Of a DNA stretch of 33,249 bases, positions 26,701-33,249 are shown piece by piece. The stretch spans positions 1 to 33,249 of the forward strand of contig JAHQYM010000018.1 in the NCBI GenBank assembly GCA_024421095.1, written 5' to 3'. The first letter of the stretch is position 1. Every line of letters starts with the position of its first letter. The position numbers and the translations under genes were made by a program. Below the pieces are notes generated by a model. That model worked only from the letters and a program-made list of their open reading frames with translations. It had not been told where the DNA came from and did not search any database. Source of the DNA: Acidimicrobiia bacterium (GTDB lineage: Bacteria > Actinomycetota > Acidimicrobiia > Acidimicrobiales > Aldehydirespiratoraceae).

Positions 26701-29700
26701 TGCGGTTGCTACGCCCCTCATCGTCCGTCACCTTCGCGTCAATCCGATAACGTCCGCCGATCGCGCCAGCAAACTTACACTCAACGGGAGTGGTACTTGA
26801 AATCACCTCGCAGCTTTCAGGTTCCACGGCAATCTCCAACCACTCACCATCAACAAAGTCACTGATCAAGCGCGAAGCCACAATCTCAAAAGGCCGGCCA
26901 GCAAGCGGGTTACCATCTATGTCAGTAACTATCGCTTCAACCTCAAAGCCCACCCCCGACCTTACAAACGACCGGGGTGAACGAATTCCCACATAAACCT
27001 CGGCCGCGTGAACTAGCACACCGCTTGAAGCGGCCCATTGTTGACGGTTCAAATCAAGCACTTCGGCTTGTGCCGTAACCATCGTTGGTAACTGATCGCC
27101 ATCGCCTGCAAAGTCCATGCGCAGATAATGGCTTCCGCTCGCATCGGTGCGACCAAGAAAAGTTGCGGGTGCCTCGTCAGCCTCAGACCCTAGATAACTT
27201 CCATACCCGCCATAGTCCCCGAACGTGTCATAGTCGCTAAAGGTGACGTAGTAGCTGGCCGTGCGGACCCACCAAGGTTGCCAAACACCGAAAGTGAACG
27301 CACCCCAGTTGGGTGGTGAGTACTCGCCACGCTGAGTATCAACCGACCAAGTAACTGGGGCATTCGGTAAGGGGCCACTCGAAAAATAGCGCGCATCCAC
27401 CACCGCTGTGGTGGGTTCATTCACCAAGAATGGCCCAGCCCGATCGAAGCGAGTAGAAACTTCAAATTCAGGGCGGCGAAACTCCTGAATTTGAAACGGA
27501 TGGTAATGGAAACTGTTCCGAAGCCCCGAGAACTCAATTCCGGCGTGCCCGAGATTTGCCCCTTGCGGCAACTCAATAGCAAGATCAAACCCACCGTGTT
27601 CATCGAGGCGCACATTAGATTCGGCAAGTTCGTTTCCGTGCCAATCATATGCGCTATAACGAACTGATTGCCCGGTAGGGAGCAACTCCAAGGAACCATC
27701 CTCGCTCAGGTTCAAATTGCGTATCCAACCCTTGATATGAACCGTCTCACCAGGCCGATACGTCCCGCGATCGTCGGTGACATACCAAATCAGTTGTTGG
27801 TTAGCCTCAGATAAATGCAAGTCACCGACGTTGATCGCTGAATCGTTGCCGAGTGAAGCCAAAACTCCACCGAGGCGCCCTCGCATGCTTAACCGCGCCA
27901 ATCCCTCATCATCGCTGACACTTTGAGTGGTTCGTCCAACGAACTCCAGTGTGACATTCGCTAGCGGAGTGCCAGAACGCAAGTCTGTGGTCCAAACCAG
28001 CAAATTATCATTGTGGCTCAGCATGTCGACACCAATATGGGTGTCTTGTACCCAAACTACCAACGGGCGGTTATCCCAATATTTCCTGTCGTCATAAGTG
28101 ATCGTCGCGAAATCGCCAACACCTTCAACAATGGCAATAACGTGCCCGCGCTCACCTTCCAAAGCGGAACCTACATCAATCTGTACTTCAGCAATTGCGT
28201 TAACATCAGCATCGCCAGCCAGGCCCGTATCAATCACTTGATCGTTTATCAACGTCCACGGTGGATCAGGCAGCAAACCTTCCTCATCACGTTGCCAGCG
28301 GTCCCAAAAACGCTCATAAGAACTCAGGTCGCTCGGCAACACATCAAACAAACGCACCCGCAACTGTTGATGGCCTCGCACCATTGCTGAAAACTGTTGC
28401 GCCTCAATATGGGGATCCAAAATGACAAGAGGGTTACGTGGACCTCGAAGAAACGGCTGAGCATTGCTGAACCCGAATTCAACAGCCGTCGGTGAGCCCA
28501 AAGTCTGGCCATACTCGTCTGCCAACGAAGCCGGCAACTCCACTTCGTAATCCGTGCCAGCCAACGTTGCGCCCACGATTTCTAGCGCATCGTGACGTAC
28601 CGCAATCCGCTTATCGCGCAGTGGTGGCGAAATCTTCACCTCCGAAACATTGAGCGAAGCCGCGTCCAAAACATTATTGAATCGCACCAACAACAGCGAA
28701 CCTTCAGTGCATGAATGGACGCTAAAACTGTCGCACTCGTTGCCTCTAACCCGCAAAGGCCCATACGTTCGGCGCCATCTCAGAAACATTTCGGGGGACG
28801 TGTTCGGCCCTTCAGCAGAGCGAACATGTGGCCCCACTTTGATTTCTACCCTTGAATCGCGAGGAAGATCATTCGTTGGCCTGAAAGCAACCCACGTACC
28901 CTCAACAGCTTGTTGGGTGTGCAATAATGCCTCGGCATCGGCTGCAACCTCAGTTTCGGTGGCGAGCCGCACCGGGTATTGTTCCCCCGCAACTTCTAGC
29001 GCAATTTGTTTGAGCATCTCGGTTGGGTTGACGCGCTGGCTAAACGTGGCCACAAACACTTGCTGCAGATCAATCGACTCGTGCCGTGGTATAAGCGCAG
29101 TCAAACTCACGGCTGGGGTTTGGAACTCAAATTGAACGGTTTCTGCTAATTCGTTTCCGGCTAATGACTTGGTGCCAGCGGGGATTTCCACAACGTAAGA
29201 AGTGGACATCGGTAAACGATCGGTAATTTGCGGGTCATGCTCAAAACGCAGCGTACGAGTACCAATCCATTGCCACCGACCCGGTAACTCTGGCGACACC
29301 CGAACCGGTACATTCGCAGCATCTAATTGGGCAACGGTGGTAAGCGGCACCATGGCTTGATTAAAAGTAACGCTAACGAAGGGCGCGATTTCCACTTCGC
29401 CTTGAGGCTGCACCCGCAATACTTCCAAAGGACCAACAGCTTCTTCGGGGCTAGCAAGGCCGACAGCGGGAGCAAACGGATTGTTGATAGTGTCACCAAC
29501 ACGAGGTGGCTTCAGTGTCTCGGCCGGACGGTTGAATTCACTGGAATCCCCCGCCACAGCTACATCCCAGGTTGGCAAACGATTGGTGACTTGGCGGATT
29601 TCGTCGGCGCTGAGCACACGACCATCGGCGCGCCGGATCGCGGGCACCGATTCGGTGAGGCTAGGTGCGCCTTCACTCAAGTTGACCACAAGCGTTGACC

Positions 29701-29893
29701 GCGTTGAGTTCGTCCGTTGTCCTTGCACTAAGCCCGTGAACGCAGCAGAAACGTTCGGTTGCCTGCTCGGATCTGGTTGTGTGGTCACCTTGGGTTGCAC
29801 GGTTGGTGCGGGTTCCGTGTCGCTCGCCAGAAGCGCAGCCAAAACCACCAACGCCACCCCAACTACAAGCCAACCCAAAATATGTCTACGCAT
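23756..29893 (-). CDS. Alpha-2-macroglobulin-like protein without thioester
   Basis: The product is a 2045-residue envelope protein of the bacterial alpha-2-macroglobulin family. One N-terminal membrane helix (about residues 7-24, GWLVVGVALVVLAALLA) lacks a lipobox Cys, so it is membrane-anchored rather than a lipoprotein. Ig-like bacterial macroglobulin domains come first (VSVTFNQAMVPLTT, LRFEHDPQI). The MG2 motif DDRGTYRPGETVHIKGW is near residue 710, the MG7-type VDEAVLAVSGYELLDPL near 1238, and the LPDSLTRYRVMAIA block near 1355. The helical thioester domain follows. Where thioester proteins have YGCAEQ, this one reads RYPSATAYASR (SATA at 1548-1551), so it cannot trap proteases covalently. 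The usual partner gene pbpC is not adjacent. Confidence 0.88.
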   Translation of the reverse strand: MRRHILGWLVVGVALVVLAALLASDTEPAPTVQPKVTTQPDPSRQPNVSAAFTGLVQGQRTNSTRSTLVVNLSEGAPSLTESVPAIRRADGRVLSADEIRQVTNRLPTWDVAVAGDSSEFNRPAETLKPPRVGDTINNPFAPAVGLASPEEAVGPLEVLRVQPQGEVEIAPFVSVTFNQAMVPLTTVAQLDAANVPVRVSPELPGRWQWIGTRTLRFEHDPQITDRLPMSTSYVVEIPAGTKSLAGNELAETVQFEFQTPAVSLTALIPRHESIDLQQVFVATFSQRVNPTEMLKQIALEVAGEQYPVRLATETEVAADAEALLHTQQAVEGTWVAFRPTNDLPRDSRVEIKVGPHVRSAEGPNTSPEMFLRWRRTYGPLRVRGNECDSFSVHSCTEGSLLLVRFNNVLDAASLNVSEVKISPPLRDKRIAVRHDALEIVGATLAGTDYEVELPASLADEYGQTLGSPTAVEFGFSNAQPFLRGPRNPLVILDPHIEAQQFSAMVRGHQQLRVRLFDVLPSDLSSYERFWDRWQRDEEGLLPDPPWTLINDQVIDTGLAGDADVNAIAEVQIDVGSALEGERGHVIAIVEGVGDFATITYDDRKYWDNRPLVVWVQDTHIGVDMLSHNDNLLVWTTDLRSGTPLANVTLEFVGRTTQSVSDDEGLARLSMRGRLGGVLASLGNDSAINVGDLHLSEANQQLIWYVTDDRGTYRPGETVHIKGWIRNLNLSEDGSLELLPTGQSVRYSAYDWHGNELAESNVRLDEHGGFDLAIELPQGANLGHAGIEFSGLRNSFHYHPFQIQEFRRPEFEVSTRFDRAGPFLVNEPTTAVVDARYFSSGPLPNAPVTWSVDTQRGEYSPPNWGAFTFGVWQPWWVRTASYYVTFSDYDTFGDYGGYGSYLGSEADEAPATFLGRTDASGSHYLRMDFAGDGDQLPTMVTAQAEVLDLNRQQWAASSGVLVHAAEVYVGIRSPRSFVRSGVGFEVEAIVTDIDGNPLAGRPFEIVASRLISDFVDGEWLEIAVEPESCEVISSTTPVECKFAGAIGGRYRIDAKVTDDEGRSNRSELSLWVAGATNASPNSVVELETVQLVADAESYAVGDTAEILVLSPFESASGLMVVTGNGSIESRTFEVSDYSTVLEVPINDDNVPELTVNIELVGSAVRAGDNGEVPTDSRERPAFATGQVRLRVPPLQRALNVLATPESAVLEPGSRTQVTLEVTDSQGSVVEGANVLLVVVDEAVLAVSGYELLDPLEVFYEPRFVSLRLSRSRDSIALASSSTRGRRLSAPTSGDMESDASFPDSLPATSFALTSSDAETAPISAQDVPIDVRENLDALAVFDPDVTTNANGVATVAFNLPDSLTRYRVMAIAVDGPDRFGSTDSTITARLPLQVRPSAPRFLNFGDRFELPVIVQNTTATDAQIDVVVQASNLVLEGAVGRRVTVPANDRVEVRFRAAANLAGTARLRVAAVSSSGADAQELSIPVYTPASSEAFATYGVLDSGVVSYALEQPQDVLVNVGGLEIDTSSTALQALTDAVLYLTRYRYPSATAYASRILAIAALRDVLEAFSAEGLPTPEKLDSLVRLDIKALTALQHEDGAFGRWSLRVPPDPYVSVQAMHALLLAKDAGYEVSQTALDVGSMFLRNVGDNTPASYSQANKNTLEAYALAVRALGGDKDPRGAAELWHSRGSELGLDALAWIWPVVEDPTIAEEIERIFANRVTETANAATFVTDYDEDAYLILASDRRTDALVLDALISVRPDSDLIPKLVNGLLASRIKGRWNNVQENSFVSLALHKYFRAFEDTVPDFVARVWLGGQYLAEHDFSGRSTDRAATLVPMNEVVALVTPESNSTLVVQNDGVGRLYYRLGLQYVPANLTQDPLDRGFVVQRSYEAVDDPQDVWLDTDGTVHVALGAQVRVNVTMVNDSRRTNMALVDPLAAGFETVNSSLAVTAAPSSPSDSDTDSAFGWWWNRWFEHENLRDDRSEAFASYLPAGTYEYSYVVRATAPGVFVVPPAKAEEIYAPEVFGRSRSHMVVVEETADVS

Positions 29894-30003
29894 GGCAGGT
29901 TCTCTTTCTAGTCGCCTACAAAACTAAGACGAACCAAAGACAAAGAATAGTTCCCAACCAACGCGCGCCGCTCTCGCCTTGTTCAAAGCCGGGTTGTTGT
30001 TGG

Positions 30004-30456
30004 TCAGGTGCCGACGAAAATTGCGATGATTACGGCGATTACTAATACCGCGACGGTTGCCGTGAAAGCCCAAACATCTCTACTTCGTGTGGCCGCCATT
30101 TCCGCAAAACCCACATCAATCTTCGCTTGGACTGTTGCGAATCCAGCCTCGGTGTACATCTTGAGTGCGGCAGCATTTGCGTCAACCTTGACATCAACCG
30201 CTTCAACCTTGGCATCAACCGTTCCAACCTTGGCATCAACCCTTTCAACCTTCGCATTGAGCCGTTCTGTCTTTACGTCAGCTTCAGCAAACCCCACTGC
30301 CATTTCTGCCGCTAACGTTTGCACGTCGACCTTCGTCGCAAACTGATCCCAGCCACCCGGCGGACCTTGCGCCATCAACATCTCAGCACCCTCGTCACCG
30401 ACCATGTCAACCAACTTACCATACACTTCTGCAATCAGCTTCTTGGAATGAGCCAT
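30004..30456 (-). CDS. Small tail-anchored coiled-coil protein
   Basis: I do not recognise a named family. The 150-residue product has a polar N-terminal domain (residues 1-60, with QGPPGGWDQFATKVD). A long heptad coiled coil follows (about 60-125: ERLNAKVERVDAKV, then TVDAKVEAVDVKVD and on to FATVQAKIDVGFAEM). The protein ends with a single C-terminal membrane helix (about 128-149, AFTATVAVLVIAVIIAIFVG) and almost no tail. The layout resembles DUF1640-like or other tail-anchored oligomers. A GGGAGG Shine-Dalgarno sits 5 nt before the ATG. It has its own promoter with an inverted repeat at the likely transcription start, so it may be specifically regulated. The macroglobulin gene starts 110 bp downstream. 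Confidence 0.75.
   Translation of the reverse strand: MAHSKKLIAEVYGKLVDMVGDEGAEMLMAQGPPGGWDQFATKVDVQTLAAEMAVGFAEADVKTERLNAKVERVDAKVGTVDAKVEAVDVKVDANAAALKMYTEAGFATVQAKIDVGFAEMAATRSRDVWAFTATVAVLVIAVIIAIFVGT
30182..30265 (-). repeat. 21-bp tandem repeat encoding coiled-coil heptads, 4 units
   Basis: Four consecutive 21-bp units resemble TCAACCTTGGCATCAACCGT plus one base on the plus strand. They start at 30182, 30203, 30224 and 30245. The first three differ at few positions and the fourth has drifted more. Each encodes one seven-residue heptad (VDAKVEA type) on the minus strand. The array shows that the coiled coil grew by in-frame duplication of single heptads. Confidence 0.9.
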
Positions 30457-30470
30457 TCTTGCCTCCCAAC

Positions 30471-30501
30471 ATTACATAGCGAAAATCTTCCGCTATGTAA
30501 T
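30471..30501. repeat. Perfect 11-bp inverted repeat, probable operator or 5'-UTR hairpin
   Basis: ATTACATAGCG (30471-30481) and CGCTATGTAAT (30491-30501) are exact reverse complements separated by 9 nt. The element falls between the candidate -10 box and the Shine-Dalgarno of the coiled-coil gene, starting about where transcription would begin. It could be a repressor operator overlapping +1 or a hairpin in the leader. No U-run follows, so it is a poor terminator for the upstream dehydrogenase gene. Confidence 0.85.
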
Positions 30502-30503
30502 GC

Positions 30504-30533
30504 AATATAATACAGCAATCTACGGTTAAGCAA
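30504..30533 (-). promoter_or_regulatory. Promoter of the coiled-coil gene
   Basis: On the minus strand TTGCTT (30533-30528) is followed after 15-18 nt by a TATTATATT stretch, which offers TTATAT or TATATT as a -10 with 17 or 18 nt spacing. The region is markedly AT-rich for this genome. Transcription would start at or just before the inverted repeat. Confidence 0.6.
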
Positions 30534-30543
30534 TTCAAAAATG

Positions 30544-31563
30544 TCAATAAAGGCTCAATTGTTGCGAAAATTGTGAACTGTCTTCCCGAATAGATGCGCG
30601 TTGGGTAGCCAGAACGTTGCCGGCAGCCCAGTCGTTGGCTTCAAGCGCCTTGAGAATTCCGACCAAGTTACGATCACGAATACGCTCGAGCGTGCGCACC
30701 GAATACTGCCCCGATTGCGCTTCTGATTGAGCGACGATGCGCTCAACTAGTTCGTCGTTGAGTTCACAGACATCGGTGAGTTTGCTCCAGGGCAAAGCCA
30801 AAGTCGGGCCGAACTGACGAATAAAATGTTCCATGCCACCTTCCCCACCGGCGGCGCGGTAGGTCTCAAAAAGACCCATCTGAGCCCAACGCAAACCGAA
30901 CCCGTAGCGAATCGCATCATCAATTTCCGAAGTGGTTGCCACGCCGTCATGTACTAACCAAAGTGCTTCACGCCAGACCGCTTCCAAGAGACGATCAGCG
31001 ATAAAGGCATCAATCTCGACGCGCACATGCAGGGGTTTCATCCACAGTGAAGCGTATGTTTCAAGCGCCGTCTCTATCGCCCATTGCTCGGTTTGCGTCC
31101 CACCGCAAACCTCTACTAGAGGAAGTAGGTAGACCGGGTTGAAGGGGTGGCCGACCACGAGCCGTTGAGGATGAGTCAGGGTTGCTTGAAGGTCGCTCGG
31201 TTTGAGACCCGAGGTTGATGAAGCTATCACCGAGTCGATTGGAGCGTGTGCATCAATCTGTTCTAGAATGGTGCGTTTTACCTCAAGGTTTTCGGGAGCG
31301 CTCTCTTGAACGTGGTCTGCATCCACCACCGCTTCAGTGATCGAATCGACAATCTTCAACGAACCTCGCGTCAACGATTCGGGGTCAAGTTCAAGTTCTT
31401 GCCAAGCATGGCGGGCGTTAGCGAATACTTCGGAAATGATTCTGCTGGTGTCGGGATTGGGGTCAACAACTCTCACGTCAACCCCAGCTAATGCGAAACG
31501 CGCCGCCCAAGCGGCACCAATAACGCCCGCGCCAACCACCGCCGCGGTTTTTGTTGTTGCCAC
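30544..31563 (-). CDS. L-carnitine dehydrogenase (3-hydroxyacyl-CoA dehydrogenase family)
   Basis: The enzyme should oxidise L-carnitine to 3-dehydrocarnitine with NAD+. The N-terminal Rossmann motif GAGVIG is at residues 11-16, followed by DADHVQESAPENLEVKR, SSTSGLKPSDL and VVGHPFNPVYLLPLVEVCGG. The C-terminal block IDAFIADRLLEAVWREALWLVHDGVATTSEIDDAIRYG is closer to known carnitine dehydrogenases than to ordinary FadB-type enzymes. The 339-residue length lacks the fused thioesterase seen in some bifunctional versions. A GTG start is preceded by AGAGGGG, and only 4 nt separate it from the BKACE stop. The neighbours are the previous and next steps of carnitine breakdown. Gene symbols lcdH or cdhA are used elsewhere. 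Confidence 0.9.
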   Translation of the reverse strand: MATTKTAAVVGAGVIGAAWAARFALAGVDVRVVDPNPDTSRIISEVFANARHAWQELELDPESLTRGSLKIVDSITEAVVDADHVQESAPENLEVKRTILEQIDAHAPIDSVIASSTSGLKPSDLQATLTHPQRLVVGHPFNPVYLLPLVEVCGGTQTEQWAIETALETYASLWMKPLHVRVEIDAFIADRLLEAVWREALWLVHDGVATTSEIDDAIRYGFGLRWAQMGLFETYRAAGGEGGMEHFIRQFGPTLALPWSKLTDVCELNDELVERIVAQSEAQSGQYSVRTLERIRDRNLVGILKALEANDWAAGNVLATQRASIREDSSQFSQQLSLY

Positions 31564-31567
31564 GGGT

Positions 31568-32455
31568 TCAGCCCCTCTTAGCCAAACCGAGCATCTGGCG
31601 CACCTCAGCCGGCCCCATCACATCAATATTGAGACAATCAAGTATTTGTGCGGCACGCTCGACGAGCATGCCGTTGGTGGCCAAAACACCTTTCTCAAGG
31701 TAAAGGTTGTCTTCCAACCCGACACGAACGTTGCCCCCAACGAGCACTGCGGCGGCGACATACTCAATTTGCCGCCGCCCGATTGAGAATGTCGAAAATG
31801 TCCAATGATCTGGTGTGTTGTTGACCATCGCTAGCAAGGTATGCATGTCGTCTGGCGCACCCCAAGGAACGCCCATGCATAGCTGCGCCAATATTGGCGG
31901 TTCCAACAGTCCACGAGTTTCCATCTGTTTGGCGCACCACAAGTGCCCGGTGTCGAAACATTCGAGTTCGGGGAGCACATCAAGTTCGGAGAATTGCCGT
32001 GCGATCTCGTCTAGTTGAGAGGTGGAGTTGGTCATTATGTAGTCGCCTTCGCCAAAGTTCATGGTGCCCATGTCGATGGTTGCGATTTCGGGAAGGCATT
32101 CACGTATGTGTGCCATCCGTTCGGTGGCACCGGCCATATCGGTGCCCGCTGGGTCAAGCGGGAGTGGGTTTTCAACGCCGCCGAGGGTTAGGTCGGCACC
32201 CGTTCCACCAGTCAGATTGATGATGACATCGGTGCTCGCCGAACGGATTCTCTCAGTCAATTCCCGGTAGAGGTTGAGGTCTCGGCTTTGTTTGCCGGTG
32301 GCGGGGTCACGCACATGGCAATGCACGATGGCAGCCCCGGCTTTGGCGGCTTCGATTGCTGCGTCAGCAATCTCTTTTGGGGTGACTGGCACATGCACGG
32401 ATCTGCTTACCGTGTCGCCGCCGCCAGTGACAGCGCAGGTTATGAAGGTGCTCAT
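31568..32455 (-). CDS. Beta-keto acid cleavage enzyme (DUF849), as read from its own internal start
   Basis: This is the C-terminal moiety of the fusion, listed because it has independent start signals: AAGGA (32467-32463), 7 nt, then ATG at 32455. The 295 residues match stand-alone BKACE enzymes in length. The zinc motif HCHVRD follows AGAAIV early on. NLTGGTGADLTLGG, ATIDMGTMNFG and the late GGNVRVGLEDNLYLEKG block complete the family pattern. Next to carnitine dehydrogenase the likely substrate is 3-dehydrocarnitine, giving betainyl-CoA and acetoacetate (CdhC-type reaction). Whether it is made separately, as a fusion, or both cannot be decided from sequence. Confidence 0.8.
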   Translation of the reverse strand: MSTFITCAVTGGGDTVSRSVHVPVTPKEIADAAIEAAKAGAAIVHCHVRDPATGKQSRDLNLYRELTERIRSASTDVIINLTGGTGADLTLGGVENPLPLDPAGTDMAGATERMAHIRECLPEIATIDMGTMNFGEGDYIMTNSTSQLDEIARQFSELDVLPELECFDTGHLWCAKQMETRGLLEPPILAQLCMGVPWGAPDDMHTLLAMVNNTPDHWTFSTFSIGRRQIEYVAAAVLVGGNVRVGLEDNLYLEKGVLATNGMLVERAAQILDCLNIDVMGPAEVRQMLGLAKRG

Positions 32456-33249
32456 TTGTTGGTCCTTAGGTTGACGCGTGGGTGACGCGTGGGTTACGCG
32501 TGGGTTACGCGATGCGTTGGTTGCGGGTCTTGGCGGGTTTTGGTGGCGGCGCATCAACACTCGCAAGCGTGAATACACCTCGTCATGGTCGACGTACGCC
32601 CCTCGCAGGATGCGTTTACCGGTGGTTTCGCTGAATGCACCTCGGCCATGCAGAATGCGACGGTTATCGAAAGCTACCACCTCCCCTGGCGAGAACACTG
32701 AACGGAGTTGGAATTCATCGCTGCCCGCGAGTTGCGAGAAACGCCGCATCGCTGAGTACGCCAATGGAAGGTCTGCTTCGCACATATCGGGGAACGCTCT
32801 GACGGGATGGAAGGCACGAAATGTGACTGGGGTGTTTGGTCCACCGTGGTCAATTATGGGGCCGCTCCAGCGATGGTCGTGATCTTTGGAGCGGTTGAAG
32901 AAGATCCATTTGGCGCGGCTGAGAACCTCATAGTGGTGGGGCTCATGTTCATGCAGGTGTTGAGCCACCGCGTAACCGTCGGTCATGTGGCTCAAACCGC
33001 CGCGGCAGTCATTGACTTGACAGTGCAGCAGTTGGTAACCCGGTGGGGTTTCACGGGTGGGCAGGTCGGCGTGTGCGGCTAGCGGTAAGGCTTTGTTCGC
33101 TACCGATGTTGGGGTGAGGTCTACGCTTACCGACCAGGTCGTGCCGAAATTGGTGTCGCGCAAGGCGCCGATGCGCTGCCCGAGGTTGGCCACCGTTTCG
33201 GTTTCGTTGCTCAACCCAGTTAGGCGGGCAACACCCAACTCCACGAGAG
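31568..33249 (-). CDS. Fusion: gamma-butyrobetaine-type dioxygenase + beta-keto acid cleavage enzyme (5' end outside window)
   Basis: One uninterrupted frame, at least 560 codons, joins two enzymes. Numbering from the GTG at 33244, residues 1-250 are the catalytic part of a 2-oxoglutarate/Fe(II) dioxygenase of the gamma-butyrobetaine hydroxylase group. They include RIGALRDTNFGTTWSV, iron ligands His58 and Asp60 (HADLPTRE), PGYQLLHC, and His199 in FDNRRILHGRGAF. Its N-terminus is beyond the window. After a Pro/Arg/Thr linker built from an 11-bp tandem repeat comes a complete 295-residue DUF849/BKACE domain from Met264. The dioxygenase would make carnitine from butyrobetaine, and the BKACE would cleave 3-dehydrocarnitine with acetyl-CoA. 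The internal Met has its own Shine-Dalgarno, so the fused state may be recent or variable. Confidence 0.85.
   Translation of the reverse strand, partial: LVELGVARLTGLSNETETVANLGQRIGALRDTNFGTTWSVSVDLTPTSVANKALPLAAHADLPTRETPPGYQLLHCQVNDCRGGLSHMTDGYAVAQHLHEHEPHHYEVLSRAKWIFFNRSKDHDHRWSGPIIDHGGPNTPVTFRAFHPVRAFPDMCEADLPLAYSAMRRFSQLAGSDEFQLRSVFSPGEVVAFDNRRILHGRGAFSETTGKRILRGAYVDHDEVYSRLRVLMRRHQNPPRPATNASRNPRVTHASPTRQPKDQQMSTFITCAVTGGGDTVSRSVHVPVTPKEIADAAIEAAKAGAAIVHCHVRDPATGKQSRDLNLYRELTERIRSASTDVIINLTGGTGADLTLGGVENPLPLDPAGTDMAGATERMAHIRECLPEIATIDMGTMNFGEGDYIMTNSTSQLDEIARQFSELDVLPELECFDTGHLWCAKQMETRGLLEPPILAQLCMGVPWGAPDDMHTLLAMVNNTPDHWTFSTFSIGRRQIEYVAAAVLVGGNVRVGLEDNLYLEKGVLATNGMLVERAAQILDCLNIDVMGPAEVRQMLGLAKRG
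32453..32468 (-). promoter_or_regulatory. Internal Shine-Dalgarno and start codon of the BKACE moiety
   Basis: AAGGA lies 7 nt ahead of an ATG at exactly the place where stand-alone BKACE proteins start. In a different frame from the one used, the bases TAA (32468-32466) overlap the front of the Shine-Dalgarno, the usual arrangement for two adjacent cistrons. Confidence 0.65.
32471..32514 (-). repeat. 11-bp tandem repeat, 4 units, at the enzyme fusion junction
   Basis: Units at 32471, 32482, 32493 and 32504 follow GT(G/T)ACGCGTGG on the plus strand, with the outer units slightly worn. Eleven is not a multiple of three, so each unit is read in a different frame and any change in copy number shifts the frame between the two enzymes. 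On the coding strand two units contain TAA and two contain TCA. The only unit whose triplet falls in the reading frame (32485-32483) has TCA. Confidence 0.9.

Follow-up and report, generated by a model that had tools for sequence, protein, structure and literature searches.

A perfect 12-bp palindrome ahead of a tail-anchored coiled-coil gene in an Acidimicrobiia bacterium: a candidate mRNA leader hairpin

The mRNA of ompA carries a stabilising stem-loop at its 5' end, and leader stems that mask the Shine-Dalgarno (SD) sequence occur in RNA thermometers. A head-neck-stalk-anchor layout is known from MCUR1/CCDC90B and their bacterial relatives. Stabilising 5' stem-loops in mRNA are covered in PMC7509114. 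CIRCE, the operator of HrcA, is treated in PMC4245973, while PMC545781 gives its consensus and places it at −45 to −99. Yeast homologues of MCUR1 (DUF1640) combine a coiled coil with a membrane segment, according to PMC7519068.

We analysed a 33,249-nt stretch of DNA from an Acidimicrobiia bacterium (the window), in which a palindrome at 30470-30502 occupies the 87-nt gap between two minus-strand genes. Like CIRCE, it is a perfect inverted repeat with a 9-nt spacer, near a putative transcription start and upstream of an SD. Unlike CIRCE, it has unrelated arms, is present in one copy rather than two, and precedes a gene that is not a chaperone gene. As in ompA-type 5'-terminal stem-loops, its hairpin should lie at the extreme 5' end of the transcript, but it nearly touches the SD. 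With the SD-masking leader stems of its relatives it shares a structure near the initiation site in the same gene family, although both the SD and the start codon fall outside its own stem. The protein encoded downstream shares a head helix, a coiled-coil stalk and a C-terminal membrane anchor with MCUR1/CCDC90 (DUF1640); it differs in having no Pfam match, and the match of a family profile to chain 6h9l_A covers the stalk. We tentatively read the palindrome as a 5'-leader stem-loop in the mRNA of this tail-anchored coiled-coil gene, where it would tune expression, a reading to which we give somewhat less than even chances.

Table 1 Features of the palindrome and its surroundings in the window
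Feature	Position	Strand	Role or remark	Basis
Perfect arm CATTACATAGCG (plus strand)	30470..30481		3' arm of the predicted hairpin in minus-strand mRNA	sequence
Perfect arm CGCTATGTAATG (plus strand)	30491..30502		5' arm of the predicted hairpin in minus-strand mRNA	sequence
9-nt spacer GAAGAUUUU (minus-strand RNA)	30482..30490		predicted to add 3 pairs (G.U, A-U, A-U) and a 3-nt loop	sequence, folding
150-aa gene: N-terminal head helix, long coiled-coil helix, C-terminal membrane anchor	30004..30456	-	apparently MCUR1/CCDC90-like layout	
Upstream gene, 3-hydroxyacyl-CoA dehydrogenase type	30544..31563	-	stop 41 nt before the palindrome; outside the element	
Shine-Dalgarno GGGAGG	30462..30467	-	two bases past the palindrome; predicted weak pairing with first codons, not with the palindrome	
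Possible −10, TATTAT	30507..30512	-	alternative TATATT at 30504-30509; no full sigma-70 match	
Weak −35-like TTGCTT	30528..30533	-	15 nt from TATTAT	read from sequence

Read along the minus strand, the dehydrogenase stop codon is followed by a weak promoter-like stretch with TATTAT, four bases, the palindrome, two bases, GGGAGG, five bases and ATG. The original prediction had described a perfect 11-bp repeat with a 9-nt spacer; the repeat and its spacer are real, but the arms are 12 bp long without mismatch, with half-site centres 21 bp apart. It had also noted a strong SD, which is present as GGGAGG, and an AT-rich island, and indeed, within the window, AT content over 100 bp is highest in the stretches that begin at 30471-30482. 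Its "good −10" was overstated: the letters TATTAT are there, but a consensus scan of 29800-30800 returned no sigma-70 promoter (shuffle mean 0.6) and no terminator. An exact TTGACA is present at 30542-30547, where it shares bases with the stop codon of the dehydrogenase-type gene. Because no sigma-70 promoter was found in this region, we can only infer that transcription starts at the palindrome, and the promoter signals ahead of the tail-anchored gene appear weak.

RNA from the minus (sense) strand is predicted to form a hairpin of 16 pairs with a 3-nt loop and an energy of −19.8 kcal/mol on its own, that is, a stable stem in the sense transcript of the tail-anchored gene. The stem grows from 12 to 16 pairs by a G.U pair at each end of the perfect stretch and two A-U pairs, whereas in plus-strand RNA it ends at 12 pairs. 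This preference for the sense strand, as modelled, is slight evidence for a role in RNA. When one mismatch is allowed in the DNA, the arms reach 15 nt around a 3-nt loop. An 81-nt RNA around the palindrome has a z of −3.9, and one of 200 shuffles folds equally well. The SD has a predicted unpaired probability of 0.13-0.16, and the hairpin ends short of it.

To place the palindrome within its own genome, we scanned 396,442 bases, comprising the window and 20 sampled stretches. Perfect palindromes with arms of at least 12 and loops of 3-20 occur five times in this sample, compared with 0, 1, 0, 2 and 0 times in five block shuffles. Besides 30470-30502, they lie in the alpha-2-macroglobulin gene of the window (27461-27495), in a coding frame in L149, in L150 and in L137. 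The L150 palindrome sits between two frames that, from their translations, are probably PTS components, and the one in L137, upstream of groES, contains the exact CIRCE sequence. The window's second palindrome (TTCAAATTCAGG) is likewise a perfect 12-bp one, with an 11-nt spacer, within the alpha-2-macroglobulin coding frame. As two of the five are in coding sequence, single 12-bp palindromes can arise without a leader role. Among leaders, though, the window gene stands at the extreme: across 318 predicted genes (start sites predicted by a simple rule), its perfect arms of 12 in the −65 to −5 region are the longest, followed by 10, 9 and 8, and its leader folding energy ranks second of 318 uncorrected and first after GC correction (z −4.6). 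The second longest leader palindrome in the sample belongs to frame 5576-7051 of L135; it has ten bp, TAGTCACCTA-N6-TAGGTGACTA, with TATAGT in its middle.

Homology search, tree and profile search all place the gene downstream of the palindrome in a tail-anchored family. Homologues of the window protein occur in 25 of 61 genomes (its own included), with many copies in some of them (16 matches in G004). The profile search found two family members in its own genome and 5-19 matches in each of five congeners, some of them broken or clustered. In the tree, four G004 proteins form the sister group of the window protein (support 99/96). Clusters of several copies are seen at G002:C8 (L059), G003:C63 (L064) and G001:C36 (L030); the copies lie in both orientations on some contigs, and some are truncated or carry internal stops. 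The predicted structure of the window protein (mean pLDDT 84.9, pTM 0.37) opens with a short head helix; after an interruption at PPGGW, a single long helix runs to the C-terminus. By this model the protein resembles the head-neck-stalk-anchor proteins of MCUR1/CCDC90 type. Searches of Pfam and NCBIfam assigned it to no family at cut-off. Against the CCDC90-like family PF07798 it gave no match, and one of eight relatives matched weakly (19.7 against a gathering score of 33.5). A profile of 18 members matches 6h9l_A, which we take to be from the MCUR1/CCDC90B structure paper, over the stalk with an E of 9e-5; apolipoprotein A-IV scores better, and the match could reflect coiled-coil composition.

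Structured leaders are predicted widely elsewhere in the family. We assembled a leader set by hand, keeping 61 of 84 candidate starts and dropping internal and secondary ones; some rows are near duplicates. Many leaders in other branches carry an anti-Shine-Dalgarno stretch (e.g. ACTTCCCC, CTTCCTCC, CCTCCTCA) 30-45 nt ahead of the start, and consensus folds of three leader groups predict that the SD and the start codon are masked in one long interrupted hairpin. Such hairpins are predicted in genus g5 (L007-L011, L028, L029, L071, L072, L074-L080) and in the window's own genus (L004-L006, L016, L030, L064, L065). Of 56 family leaders, 35 are predicted to have both SD and start masked, compared with 41 of 166 control genes (p 0.0005 to 0.03, values that are optimistic because the rows are related and relatedness was ignored). 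Run against 51 genomes, a covariance model built on six leaders gave 27 matches at E <= 0.01, and its best 20 (E < 3e-4, its own six included) all adjoin a family protein match and belong to g5. A smaller search with it (38 sources) found the congener leader L005 at E 0.006.

In a 25-row alignment 425 of 491 cells pair, with changes on both sides at several pairs, the alignment itself being fitted to the six-leader model; six of its 34 rows were dropped (five on the opposite strand over true matches, one unrelated), leaving 28, of which 25 are distinct. In two single groups, structures slid along the alignment pair at most 53.6% and 59.0% of cells, compared with 94.7% and 88.6% for the unshifted ones. 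Single-group covariation did not exceed that of shuffles in most measures; as many pairs with two-sided changes arose in 80 and 191 of 500 shuffles. Hardly any consensus fold emerged from the group A, group E and joined B+C alignments (3, 5 and 5 pairs). Ten family loci, the window's included, have no Rfam match at gathering score, and at E <= 1 the single match in positions 29800-30800 of the window was to a microRNA, with 20.3 bits where the gathering score is 90.

The window leader itself has no anti-Shine-Dalgarno stretch and matches neither of the two family covariance models (R1, R2). The leaders of its four closest homologues (L003, L032, L033, L053) show no more structure than the controls do (z 0.06 to −1.1); their energies rank 17-24 of 60, and the stems that can be drawn in them are no better than in shuffles. 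Their consensus fold is weak, and no stem conserved with compensating changes was found in them. On these predictions, the window gene appears to lack the SD-masking stem of its relatives and to carry the palindrome instead. Because the four closest leaders show no unusual stability, the element looks private to this genome or lineage; for the same reason, inheritance of a hairpin is unsupported, which counts against the hairpin reading, as does the failure of the family leader models to match.

The genomic setting bears on whether the palindrome serves the gene upstream or downstream of it. As originally noted, no regulator is encoded beside it: the neighbours are the alpha-2-macroglobulin gene, the dehydrogenase-type gene and a TauD/BKACE frame. 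In the latter (31568-33244, minus strand), which adjoins the dehydrogenase-type gene, TauD-type dioxygenase and beta-keto acid cleavage enzyme domains share a single uninterrupted frame, possibly a gene fusion in a carnitine-like pathway. All five congeners have dehydrogenases 75-77% identical to the window's, and in none of them is the dehydrogenase followed by a tail-anchored gene or a comparable palindrome; a 7-bp inverted repeat is present in one. The palindrome therefore arrived with, or after, the tail-anchored gene, and on this comparison of gene order it is linked to that gene and not to the dehydrogenase. It is very unlikely that it is a terminator or intercistronic stem of a dehydrogenase operon in which the tail-anchored gene is co-transcribed. 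The same-strand neighbour, its nearby stop codon and the short intergenic gap would suit such an arrangement, but the congener dehydrogenases do without the palindrome, a T run is found on neither side, and 29800-30800 holds no terminator-like site. An intrinsic terminator, with its G+C-rich stem followed by a T run, was rejected accordingly.

The genome search that had been proposed for further copies of the arms returned, in the 2.72-Mb, 98%-complete genome, nothing but the palindrome itself at up to three mismatches over 22 arm bases. When the search uses 16 arm bases, again with three mismatches, two further sites appear compared with seven in the control, and half-sites occur at background frequency (7+9, control 10+12). 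No match was found in the viral contigs searched. An integron attC site, a MITE or another repeated element was rejected because neither the arms nor the palindrome as a whole recur in the genome and the half-site occurs at the control rate. The original prediction had named lack of conservation of the arms in relatives as one of two findings that would speak against it, and the arms are not conserved: they are absent from the five other genomes of the genus, and among 397 genomes of the order, with three mismatches allowed, sites outside its own genome occur in two only. Both lie inside the coding sequence of cytochrome oxidase subunit I, and an operator common to other genomes of the order was rejected. 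That prediction had left the choice between an operator for a dimeric repressor and a leader hairpin; both survive, with the hairpin favoured. In the former case, a dimeric repressor would bind both half-sites over the transcription start, by analogy with HrcA and CIRCE, and the RNA hairpin would be a by-product, which we regard as possible but rather doubtful. The perfect symmetry, the N9 spacer and the distance between half-site centres (two turns) suit a DNA-binding dimer, as do the position between a putative −10 and the SD, the AT-rich surroundings and the two CIRCE sites of like layout in the same genome. An operator would be expected to have further sites, however, so the single copy counts against it, and the same kind of search found CIRCE twice, in L137 (3648-3680, before groES, 0 mismatches) and in L159 (1501-1527, before a groEL, 2 mismatches). 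This search (own genome, <= 3 mismatches) served as a positive control, and the palindrome scan also recovered the groES site. The HrcA/CIRCE operator itself, TTAGCACTC-N9-GAGTGCTAA, was rejected for 30470-30502, which the search did not return; by our own count, the arms agree with CIRCE at 2/9 positions in register. Neither further sites nor a linked regulator gene, as expected of a dimeric regulator in general, were found in this genome, and the near matches elsewhere in the order are codons. Lastly, we consider it improbable that the palindrome is a product of chance or of recent events, such as template switching at an imperfect repeat, with no selected role. Its restriction to this genome and the coding location of two of the five long palindromes would fit, but it is the best of 318 leaders, and shuffles give 0-2 palindromes per 396-kb sample, of which leader sequence makes up roughly 5% (our own estimate).

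We favour a hairpin in the mRNA leader because the arms are single copy, the stem is extended on the sense strand and the family has structured leaders; because the leader palindrome ranks first of 318 by both arm length and GC-corrected energy; and because the five congener dehydrogenases lack both the gene and a comparable palindrome. The transcript would start at or just inside the distal arm, so that the mRNA would begin with a stable hairpin of about 9-16 bp, depending on the start, ending two bases before the SD. Formed in the cell, this hairpin may limit or tune the start of translation, and may shield the 5' end and affect mRNA life; it would replace the stem that is predicted to mask the SD and start codon in many family members. 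With TATTAT as the −10, transcription would probably miss the outer one to four bp of the palindrome, and the symmetry of these pairs fits DNA recognition better than an RNA hairpin.

Taken alone, the palindrome would add to the cis-acting leader elements, and its general kind is known. It also serves as a pointer, in that structured leaders are predicted for its gene family in several genera, with ten tested loci lacking an Rfam match; bacterial MCUR1/CCDC90-like proteins may thus be translationally controlled. The window gene would be a natural swap of a control element within the tail-anchored family. Specifically, we suggest, as an unlikely history, that a multi-copy head-neck-stalk-anchor membrane protein family of the Acidimicrobiia is translationally controlled by leaders of its own type, which fold the SD and start codon into a single interrupted hairpin, and that in the window's branch this lock gave way to a palindrome where transcription starts. 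If that is true, one gene family has switched its type of control.
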